From: Dehalococcoidia bacterium
GTDB lineage: Bacteria > Chloroflexota > Dehalococcoidia > GIF9 > JAUXIO01
Direction: 5' to 3'
DNA length: 34,773 bases
Assembly (NCBI GenBank): GCA_030620975.1
Contig: JAUXIO010000008.1
Location: 1 to 34,773, forward strand
A program made the position numbers and the translations under genes. The notes under the pieces are model-generated. The model did not search any database and was not told the DNA's origin. It saw only the letters and a list, made by a program, of their open reading frames with translations. Shown piece after piece: positions 13,559 through 16,724 of this stretch; the stretch's first letter is position 1, and each line of letters opens with the position of its first letter.

Positions 13559-13591
13559 ATTGTTAACCTTTTTGAATTTATGGTTGACAAT
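13559..13591 (+). promoter_or_regulatory. BirA-type operator upstream of birA
   Basis: ATTGTTAACC (13559-13568) and GGTTGACAAT (13582-13591) are inverted repeats matching at nine of ten positions across a 13-base spacer. This is the TTGTnAACC...GGTTnACAA form known for biotin-repressor operators. The right half-site contains the birA -35 hexamer, so binding should block RNA polymerase. An outer CTTAACC (13504-13510) and GGTTAAG (13542-13548) pair may be additional half-sites. Confidence 0.65.
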
Positions 13592-13612
13592 AAGAGCAAA
13601 CCTGTCTAAAAT
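13584..13612 (+). promoter_or_regulatory. birA promoter, near consensus
   Basis: A perfect TTGACA (13584-13589), 17-base spacer and TAAAAT (13607-13612) predict a start at 13619-13620. The birA ATG begins at 13620, so the message would have no leader. Confidence 0.75.
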
Positions 13613-13619
13613 TTGGCTG

Positions 13620-14600
13620 ATGCGCGGGTTAATTCTTAATGCTTTGCGGCGGGAAGGACATATTTCTGGGGAGGAGCTGGGCAGGAGGCTCAACGTCTCA
13701 AGAACGGCGGTTTGGAAATATATTAATGAGCTGCGCAAAAAGGGATACGAAATTGATTCTTCCTCTAAGCTGGGGTATTTTTTCATAAAGGGTCCTGATC
13801 TTCTGCTTCCTGAAGAAATTGCCATAGGGCTTAATACTCGTGTTTTGGGAAGGGAGATAGTGTATCGCGAAGAAACCGACTCGACGCAAGATGTTGCCAA
13901 GGACCTCGTGGAGCGGGGGGCAAAAGAAGGAACGGTGGTCATTGCCGAGGGACAAACTCGGGGAAGGGGGAGAAGGGGAAGAAGCTGGTCATCACCCCAC
14001 CGCGCCGGGGTATACTTGTCTATTATTTTAAGACCGAGCCTTAAACCCTTTGAAGTCCTCCAAATTCCCTTGATTGCCGGCGTGGCGGTGTGTCGAGCTA
14101 TTGAAAGCGTAACTCCCCTTAAGCCCAGAATAAAATGGCCCAATGACATCATTTTGGGTGGGAAGAAGGTGGGTGGGATACTGACTGAGATGAGTGCTGA
14201 GATAGACAGGGTGGACCACATCGCTCTTGGCATTGGAGTAAATGTGAATACTCAAAGGTCCTTGATTCCGTGGGAGATAAGGGAAGCTGCTACTTCTTTA
14301 GCTGAGGAATGTGGTGAATATGTTTCTCGGGTGAGATTTATTCAGCATCTTTTGGCTGAGCTTGAATCGCTCTACGGCGAATTTGTAATGTCTGGTTTCG
14401 GAGCTATCAAGGAGAAGTGGAACGCATTCGATGATACCATTGGCTCTTGGCTGAAAGTTAGCGGAGTGGGGAATGAGGTGGAGGGAGAGGCTATAGATAT
14501 AGACTGGGATGGTGCTTTGATCTTGAAGCAAAAAGATGGGGGTATAGAGAAGATCGTTAGTGGTGACATCACTTTAAGTGGATATGGTAAAGGTAGATGA
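13620..14600 (+). CDS. birA: Biotin-protein ligase with DNA-binding domain (BirA)
   Basis: BirA joins biotin to carrier proteins such as the acetyl-CoA carboxylase subunit and, in forms with a helix-turn-helix domain, represses genes when biotin is plentiful. The 326-residue product has an N-terminal winged helix (about 3-56, GHISGEELGRRLNVSRTAVWKYI), the catalytic glycine-rich loop GRGRRGRSW (115-123), the IKWPNDIILGGKKVGGIL segment and the C-terminal beta domain. An in-frame ATG lies 72 bases upstream, but that extension would contain the promoter, and family members start at the winged helix. The operator overlapping its own promoter points to autoregulation. No biotin synthesis gene is in the window. 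The symporter gene follows after 79 bases. Confidence 0.95.
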   Translation: MRGLILNALRREGHISGEELGRRLNVSRTAVWKYINELRKKGYEIDSSSKLGYFFIKGPDLLLPEEIAIGLNTRVLGREIVYREETDSTQDVAKDLVERGAKEGTVVIAEGQTRGRGRRGRSWSSPHRAGVYLSIILRPSLKPFEVLQIPLIAGVAVCRAIESVTPLKPRIKWPNDIILGGKKVGGILTEMSAEIDRVDHIALGIGVNVNTQRSLIPWEIREAATSLAEECGEYVSRVRFIQHLLAELESLYGEFVMSGFGAIKEKWNAFDDTIGSWLKVSGVGNEVEGEAIDIDWDGALILKQKDGGIEKIVSGDITLSGYGKGR

Positions 14601-14679
14601 TGGGTGTTTATTTTAAAGGTAGCAGAAGAACTGGGGGTATCTGTGTAGCTGGTGTGTTGCTAAATTTAAGGGAGGGAGA

Positions 14680-16053
14680 ATGCTAGACCTGCTAATTGTT
14701 ATTGTTTACTTTGCTGGCATGATAGCTGTCGGCGCATATGTATATGGCAGGGGGAGAGCATCGAGGAGAGACAGTTTTTTTGTCGCAGACCGAGGAGGTA
14801 CGGGCTTACTCATCAGTGGCTCACTTTGTGCCACTATCATTGGAGCCTCGGTTGCTGTAGGGATGACGGGGTTGGGGTTTGAAAGGGGGTTAACTGGAGC
14901 TTGGTGGCTCTTGGTAGGAAGCATCGGGCTCTTTGTCTTGGCTGCCTTTTTTGCGGGGAGAGTCAGAAGGTTTGGACTTTATACACTCCCCGAGCTTGTT
15001 GAAGAGCAATACGATAAAAGAGCGGGCTTGGTGGCCTCTATCTTGATCGTGGTTTCCTGGGTAGGTGTTATTGCGGCACAGATAGTTGCTGCCAGCATAG
15101 TTCTGAGTATCCTTGTTTCTTGCTCCTCGTCCATTTTGATGATTATTTCTGCCTCTGTCTTCATTGTTTATACTGTCCTGGGAGGGCAGCATTCAATAAT
15201 CCGTACTGATTTTATTCAATCCAGCATATTAATTATTGGTATTTTGGGATGCCTGTTTTGCCTTTCAGCCCGCGTGGGTGGAATCGAGGGATTTACAAGC
15301 TCTCTTCCCGTTGAATATTTCTCTTTTCCCGTAAGCTCGAACTTTGGCTGGCTAGATTTGGTATCTTTTCTGTTCTTGGTGGGCTCGACTTATGTAGTGG
15401 GTCCAGATATATATTCCCGATTATTTTGCGCCAAGAGCGAGAAAGTAGCTAGATCTTCAGCTCTTTTGGCAGGCTCGGTGATGATACCCATTGCCTTCTT
15501 CATTGTTATTATAGGGATGGGGGCAAGGGTTTTATTCCCGGATATTGCATCTGAGCAAGCTTTTTCTACTGTAATTCAGGAGGTTTTACCCGTGGGGATA
15601 AGCGGGTTGGTAATTGCTGCTTTGCTTGCCGCTATAATGTCGTCTGCAGATACTTGTTTGCTTACCACGAGTACCATATTAACCGAGGACATTTATAAAC
15701 GCATTTACCCGAGTATAAGTGAAGAAAGGGGATTACTAATTTCTAGAATTGGAATAGTTTTGATGGGTATATTGGCTTTGATGCTTGCTTTGAGGTTGGG
15801 AGGAGTAATAAAATCTCTGCTTCTGGCGTATACAATATTTACCAGCGGTGTAGTTGCTCCGGTAATAGTGGGGTTTTATAAGGATAAGTTGAAAGTAACC
15901 CCCCTGGGAGCTTTAGCGGCTATTGCTGGAGGCGGGGGAACAGCGTTAGTGGTAAAATTACTGGAAGTAGAGCATTTTGAACTGCTTGGTTTTGCTGTTT
16001 GTACTTTACTTTTGTTTGGCGTAAGCAGAATAGCTGGAAAGAAGGCTTTATAA
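14680..16053 (+). CDS. Sodium:solute symporter (SSS) family transporter
   Basis: A 457-residue membrane protein with about 12-13 hydrophobic segments. It shows family traits: the FFVADRGGTGLLISGSL stretch after the first membrane segment, ATIIGASVAVGMTG in the second, LPELVEEQYDKRAG, and the AALLAAIMSSADTCLLTTSTILTEDIYKR segment near 310-340, whose Ser/Asp cluster corresponds to the second sodium site in this family. AGGGAGGGAGA directly before the ATG is a good ribosome site. The substrate cannot be read from sequence. Its position after birA could suggest a vitamin or carboxylate, but that is only a guess. The next gene starts 27 bases downstream. Confidence 0.9.
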   Translation: MLDLLIVIVYFAGMIAVGAYVYGRGRASRRDSFFVADRGGTGLLISGSLCATIIGASVAVGMTGLGFERGLTGAWWLLVGSIGLFVLAAFFAGRVRRFGLYTLPELVEEQYDKRAGLVASILIVVSWVGVIAAQIVAASIVLSILVSCSSSILMIISASVFIVYTVLGGQHSIIRTDFIQSSILIIGILGCLFCLSARVGGIEGFTSSLPVEYFSFPVSSNFGWLDLVSFLFLVGSTYVVGPDIYSRLFCAKSEKVARSSALLAGSVMIPIAFFIVIIGMGARVLFPDIASEQAFSTVIQEVLPVGISGLVIAALLAAIMSSADTCLLTTSTILTEDIYKRIYPSISEERGLLISRIGIVLMGILALMLALRLGGVIKSLLLAYTIFTSGVVAPVIVGFYKDKLKVTPLGALAAIAGGGGTALVVKLLEVEHFELLGFAVCTLLLFGVSRIAGKKAL

Positions 16054-16079
16054 GGATAAGCTGGAGAAAGGAGTTAATG

Positions 16080-16724
16080 ATGGAAGTTAGATGGCTGGGA
16101 CATTCTTGTTTTCAGATTAGGGGGAAAGAAGCAGTTATTATTACTGACCCTTATCACCCCAGTTTGGGTTATTCTCTAGGTAGTCCCAAAGCAGATATAG
16201 TAACATTGAGCCATTCTCATTCTGGGCATAGTTATATTGAAGGTATAGGTGGCGTGCCTAAAAAGATTGATGGTCCCGGCGAATATGAAATGAAGGGTGT
16301 TTTTATCGTTGGTATAGCTACCTTCCATGATAATGAGCGAGGTAGGGAGCGAGGCAAGAACACTGTCTACCTTTTGGAAGTTGATGGTATGACCTTGTGT
16401 CACTTAGGTGATATTGGTCACTTGCCAACACCACAGTTAGTGGAGGAAATGAGTAATGTTGATGTCTTATTTTTACCCGTAGGTGGGGTATCTACTATTG
16501 CTCTTCCCATAGCCATAGAGATGATAAAGCGTTTGAACCCACGAATTGCCATCCCGATGCATTATAAGACACCGGCTTTGACTATGAATCTAGAACCTGT
16601 AGATAGATTTCTTAAGCAATTTGGTATCAAGCAAGTGGTTACCCAACCCAAGCTCATAATTAACCAGTCATCTACTGCTACAGATACTACTCAGATTGTA
16701 GTGCTTGATTATCTCGGGAAATAA
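16080..16724 (+). CDS. Metallo-beta-lactamase-fold hydrolase-like protein (UlaG/COG2220-like) with altered metal motif
   Basis: The 214-residue protein has the compact layout of UlaG-like metallo-beta-lactamase-fold proteins: VRWLGHSCFQI, ITDPYHP, a His motif, DGPGEYE, LGDIGHL, LFLPVGG and IPMHYKTP. The His motif is SHSHSGHS, so in HxHxDH the Asp is Gly49 (H45, H47, H50 kept); a dinuclear zinc site may be incomplete. Two adjacent ATGs exist (16077 and 16080); AAAGGAG at 16067-16073 is better spaced for 16080. It follows the symporter after 26 bases and is probably in the same transcript. Substrate unknown; catalytic activity uncertain because of the substitution. Confidence 0.82.
   Translation: MEVRWLGHSCFQIRGKEAVIITDPYHPSLGYSLGSPKADIVTLSHSHSGHSYIEGIGGVPKKIDGPGEYEMKGVFIVGIATFHDNERGRERGKNTVYLLEVDGMTLCHLGDIGHLPTPQLVEEMSNVDVLFLPVGGVSTIALPIAIEMIKRLNPRIAIPMHYKTPALTMNLEPVDRFLKQFGIKQVVTQPKLIINQSSTATDTTQIVVLDYLGK

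Follow-up and report, generated by a model that had tools for sequence, protein, structure and literature searches.

The gene for a class II biotin protein ligase (birA) in this Dehalococcoidia genome is preceded by an inverted repeat that is, with high probability, a true binding site for the biotin repressor, placed on the promoter of a small operon whose second gene encodes a symporter of the SSS family. It is likely that the two genes form a biotin-responsive, self-repressing operon in which the symporter occupies the place of BioY. With somewhat less confidence, such sodium symporters are probably a class of biotin importer that replaces BioY, in both Chloroflexota and Deltaproteobacteria, within BirA-autoregulated birA-transporter operons.

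The window (the whole stretch of 34,773 nucleotides that was analysed) belongs to a genome of 1.02 Mb in 71 contigs, 94.65% complete. It was compared with an order set of 60 genomes (including its own), of which 26 encode class II BirA, and with a second, partly overlapping set of named genomes, from which 80 SSS loci were recovered in Dehalococcoidia/Chloroflexota and Deltaproteobacteria. Some of these loci also served to train the weight matrix used for operator scoring, and the genome sets overlap; the sites are nevertheless visible by eye. Promoter elements outside the window were assigned by eye from the sequence, and start points were predicted from them.

The operator and promoter of birA

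The repeat spans positions 13559-13591 (Table 1). The original prediction described it as a near-perfect inverted repeat of the biotin-repressor type with a 13-base spacer, and this description holds: the arms pair at 9 of 10 positions, and the lone departure, A to G, creates TTGACA. The half-sites are of the TTGTWAACC type, lie at a near-fixed spacing and are located at a promoter, where the site (TTGTTAACC-N13-GGTTGACAA) covers the -35 element. The right half had also been said to contain the -35 of a near-consensus promoter, correctly so, as the promoter matches the consensus at 11/12 positions, with 17 nt to TAAAAT, and is the best among four sites in the region.

Table 1. Coordinates of features in the birA-symporter region of the window
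Feature	Position	Strand	Basis
Operator left arm, ATTGTTAACC	13559..13568	+	sequence; GTTAAC core kept in relatives
Operator spacer, 13 nt	13569..13581	.	sequence not conserved; length 13 or 14 nt among relatives and 16 nt in E. coli bioO
Operator right arm, GGTTGACAAT, also -35 region	13582..13591	+	sequence, promoter scan, relatives
-35 hexamer, TTGACA	13584..13589	+	promoter scan
-10 hexamer, TAAAAT, 17-nt spacing from -35	13607..13612	+	promoter scan
Predicted transcription start, at birA ATG or one base upstream	13619..13620	+	predicted from spacing
birA, class II biotin protein ligase/repressor, 326 aa	13620..14600	+	profile matches; start aligns with relatives
BirA winged-helix HTH, residues 5-53	13632..13778	+	Pfam HTH_11, E 3e-15
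BirA ligase domains, residues 79-319, with GRGRRGR and KWPND motifs	13854..14576	+	TIGR00121
Shine-Dalgarno-like purine-rich stretch before SSS gene	14668..14679	+	sequence
SSS-family symporter, 457 aa, predicted biotin importer, second gene of operon	14680..16053	+	PF00474; adjacency to class II birA; fold model

A search of the window for TTGTTAACC-N13-GGTTAACAA with up to three mismatches returned one match, and 0/100 shuffled sequences returned any; in the 1.02-Mb genome the operator is the only exact match, and the only match to the sequence model with E<0.7. The arms are short, and a chance inverted repeat on an ordinary promoter might be imagined, but the shuffles speak against it and the conservation of the site across families and phyla (see below) refutes it, leaving that reading a negligible probability. 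The next-best model match in the genome (C8:17948, E 0.76) was taken as noise. The suggestion that the regulon continues elsewhere in the genome was not borne out: the model scan gave no second convincing BirA site, and a wider BirA regulon in this genome was rejected.

The birA ATG, which aligns with the starts of its relatives, begins 7 nt past the -10 hexamer with no Shine-Dalgarno sequence (9 nt in relatives). The window and three other genomes (G032, G043 and G074) share one layout, in which the -35 within the right arm is followed by 17 nt, the -10 and then 7-9 nt to the ATG. A related family (f4) is built differently: TTGACA lies upstream, the -10 is supplied by the left arm (GTTAAC[A/C]T in most cases) and a short leader follows, with the operator between the -10 and the ATG, near the start codon. 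In deltaproteobacterial operons TTGACA is likewise found in the right arm, but farther upstream of birA. Wherever the right arm also acts as a -35 its sequence is GGTTGAC; in f4, where it has no such function, it is GGTTAAC or a decayed form. The imperfect base of the window's repeat is thus explained by the need for that arm to supply the -35.

In the window's lineage, then, the birA message probably starts at the ATG or within two bases of it. The original claim of a leaderless gene stands in part: leaderless transcription is plausible in that lineage (four promoters), but is not general, because f4 has its operator between the -10 and the ATG. Leaderless genes are a minority in Chloroflexi, at 4.7% on average in the four genomes of one survey (PMC3160421).

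The BirA protein and a second ligase

The encoded ligase had been predicted to carry a DNA-binding winged helix, and the HTH_11 match confirms it; together with a TIGR00121 match of 211 bits, above cut-off, this identifies a class II biotin protein ligase. The protein scores below the cut-offs of two equivalog models, the NCBIfam bifunctional BirA model NF008848 (197.5 bits against 362) and TIGR00122 (51.7 bits against 70). A second, class I biotin ligase without a DNA-binding domain is encoded as a stand-alone gene on another contig of the same genome (C12:5330-6073), which may therefore divide housekeeping and regulatory ligase duties between two proteins. A biotin carrier with the acceptor motif ESMKMEN is also encoded, at the start of a contig (C6:95-292); together, carrier and class I ligase indicate that the organism needs biotin. 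Biotin carboxylase (PF02785) was not found in this genome, and a carrier without a carboxylase domain may belong to a decarboxylase system, or the carboxylase may be missing through a gap in the assembly.

Conservation of the operator in relatives

A matching inverted repeat precedes nearly all of the 26 class II birA genes of the order set, and every one of the 22 that are accompanied by the SSS gene keeps at least 12 of 14 operator core positions. Across 20 aligned sites the cores GTNAAC and GGTTNAC vary little or not at all, and the spacer is unconstrained. When scored with the site model, the region upstream of birA is the best match in most class II genomes. The second set tells the same story: of 29 birA-SSS loci, 28 have a site ahead of birA, and in the remaining one the upstream sequence is truncated. 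Two of these upstream sites are weak (L174, score 10.4; L214, score 15.4), and both loci have a better one between birA and the SSS gene; operators in that position occur in L214, L227 and L174, and weakly in L219. Deltaproteobacterial birA-SSS operons carry TTGTCAACC-N14-GGTTGACAA or near variants. The expectation that the repeat would recur before birA in relatives is thus upheld, at orthologous genes in close and distant relatives alike, and autoregulation of birA, as originally proposed from the overlap of operator and promoter, is the likely consequence.

Operators were found at 0/51 stand-alone SSS genes of the second set, of which a few, such as L190 and L200, are cut off close upstream and could be linked. 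Nor was any convincing operator found at BioY genes in genomes without class II BirA, where the best score was 12.8 against about 21-30 for most true sites.

Four genomes with class II birA, all from one genus, lack the SSS gene (G009, G011, G048 and G019; loci L161-L164). Their operators are decayed in G048 and G011, partly so in G009, and intact in G019. Operator scores differ between class II birA genes with and without the symporter (rank test p 0.007, where the latter are these four genomes of one genus); four genomes from one genus are too few, so decay of the operator after loss of the symporter is only suggestive.

Linkage of birA to the symporter gene

The second gene encodes a member of the SSS superfamily (PF00474, 143.8 bits) with an SLC5-type fold; its predicted structure (pLDDT 90) matches SGLT and CHT1. 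It matches PF00474 only, and not the BioY family (PF02632). An SSS gene lies directly 3' of class II birA in 22 of the 26 order genomes, often with a 1-nt gap or an overlap, and birA is found just upstream in 29 of the 80 loci of the second set, in Chloroflexota and Deltaproteobacteria, where it is always class II. Linked loci are spread over the SSS tree, requiring 9 changes, at least 6 of them forced by strong branches. Genomes with stand-alone, site-less SSS genes nearly all have only class I BirA, the exceptions being G074, G106 and G107, and no gene neighbour common to the sampled stand-alone SSS genes was found.

One might argue that the operator serves only to set the dosage of BirA, and that the symporter gene just happens to lie next to it, its product carrying something unrelated. 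A BirA that regulates itself but no transport gene can be imagined, the SSS gene is also found alone, and the gap of 79 nt between the two genes in the window exceeds that in most relatives, so that co-transcription there is not certain. Against this, the two genes are linked repeatedly, on scattered branches and in more than one phylum, some genomes have extra operators directly before the SSS gene, bioY or bioA takes the same position elsewhere, and the operator is decayed in two of the four genomes that have lost the symporter. Mere dosage control of birA therefore appears unlikely.

The symporter gene of the window is followed by a gene for a metal-dependent hydrolase of the beta-lactamase fold (15999-16724); similar genes are found after the SSS gene in L172 and L225 and close to birA in G009, G011 and G019.

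Biotin supply and the substrate of the symporter

BioY is encoded by 17 of the 60 order genomes, in 0/26 of those with class II birA versus 17/34 of those without (Fisher p 6.5e-6, without correction for kinship; neither large family taken singly shows a significant exclusion, p 0.10 and 0.34). The window's own genome, which has no PF02632 match, is among those 26; BioY is likewise absent from 14 further linked genomes (0/14), and BioB above cut-off was found in 0/60 order genomes. BioY and this SSS gene are both lacking in 19 order genomes (for example, G001, G004 and G010).

G074, which encodes the closest BirA (61%), has the same arrangement of operator, -35, -10 and ATG, followed by bioY in place of the SSS gene; in G106, class II birA is followed by bioA. 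The G074 contig (G074:C114:1518-9887; L291 and L172) also bears an SSS gene of the stand-alone type, without an operator, 5 kb from birA-bioY, and this combination could possibly be an intermediate of transporter exchange. The birA-bioA locus of G106 (C93, L263; Desulfobacteraceae) carries a BirA-like site, and that genome also has a stand-alone SSS gene.

Taken jointly, the absence of BioY and BioB, the need for biotin, the swapped neighbours, the class I-only genomes with stand-alone genes and the extra operators make the symporter a probable biotin importer. The original remark that no biotin pathway gene lies near birA is accordingly not supported, as the adjoining gene most likely encodes the importer. 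The nearest homologues of the symporter (61-63%) are stand-alone and the SSS gene of G074 is operator-free, and biotin may therefore not be the ancestral substrate.

Other substrates deserve consideration. Human SMVT (SLC5A6), a sodium symporter of the SSS/SLC5 family, carries both biotin and pantothenate, and among named SSS carriers the best equivalog model for the window's protein is that of PanF, the sodium/pantothenate symporter of the same family (112 bits); a PanF-like or multivitamin carrier co-regulated with birA can thus be envisaged. However, the PanF score (112.5 bits) is far below the TIGR02119 cut-off of 328, and PanF identity was rejected on that ground; panC is encoded in this genome and in most SSS genomes, so that pantothenate import is not forced; and the exclusion described above concerns BioY. 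We regard a pantothenate or multivitamin carrier as improbable. What speaks against a biotin carrier is that the likeness to SMVT is remote (profile E 4e-18): SGLT, CHT1 and vSGLT score higher, other SLC5 carriers resemble the protein at least as closely as SMVT does, and by sequence and fold it is nearer SGLT/CHT1 than this vitamin carrier. The symporter might instead carry a carboxylate for a biotin-dependent decarboxylase, with BirA tuning the pathway, in keeping with the resemblance of the ESMKMEN protein to methylmalonyl-CoA decarboxylase or carboxylase carriers; yet there are no decarboxylase genes beside the operon and the exchange with BioY would be left unexplained, which makes a carboxylate substrate highly improbable.

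Relationship to known systems

In E. coli, BirA acts at bioO through half-sites of the same type (TTGTAAACC) that also lie over promoters, with a spacer of 16 rather than 13; bioO controls biotin synthesis genes, not birA or transport. In two biotin scavengers, Lactococcus lactis and Streptococcus suis, the promoter of a biotin transporter gene contains an inverted repeat to which a class II BirA binds (PMC4861984, PMC4877710), and the bound sites are similar to the window's operator. Besides this protein L. lactis possesses a class I BirA (PMC4861984), and so does the genome described here. The transporter in those species is the ECF-type BioY, whereas the window has an SSS symporter, and birA is not described as a target in the available portions of those reports, in contrast to the operator-bearing birA of the window (PMC4861984, PMC4877710). 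BirA autoregulation has been predicted in Desulfovibrionales, and among Proteobacteria only there (PMC5343134); birA is thus a predicted target in both cases, but the regulon in that order comprises biosynthesis and fatty-acid genes, with an SSS transporter not mentioned in the available part of that report. Precedents therefore exist for control of biotin transport by class II BirA and for a cell with two BirAs (PMC4861984), and for BirA autoregulation (PMC5343134). A large vitamin survey names BioY and YigM as bacterial importers of biotin (PMC6593275). Searches of open-licence literature turned up no bacterial SSS biotin importer, a scope that does not settle priority.

Proposed regulation and its implications

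In the scheme that we favour, BirA would convert plentiful biotin to biotinyl-5'-AMP and dimerise on its operator, covering the -35 element and silencing the downstream symporter gene along with its own. Under biotin shortage the promoter would be free, yielding more of the sensor/ligase and more of the symporter, which would bring in biotin or a close vitamer together with sodium. The symporter would thereby fill the place held in other BirA regulons by BioY or by biotin-synthesis genes.

The operator itself offers a clear case of one site that has been re-placed on its promoter, from the -35 to the -10, with its role apparently kept. For those biotin-using genomes of the order that have neither BioY nor BioB, the symporter provides a strong candidate importer, tied to biotin through a conserved repressor site.
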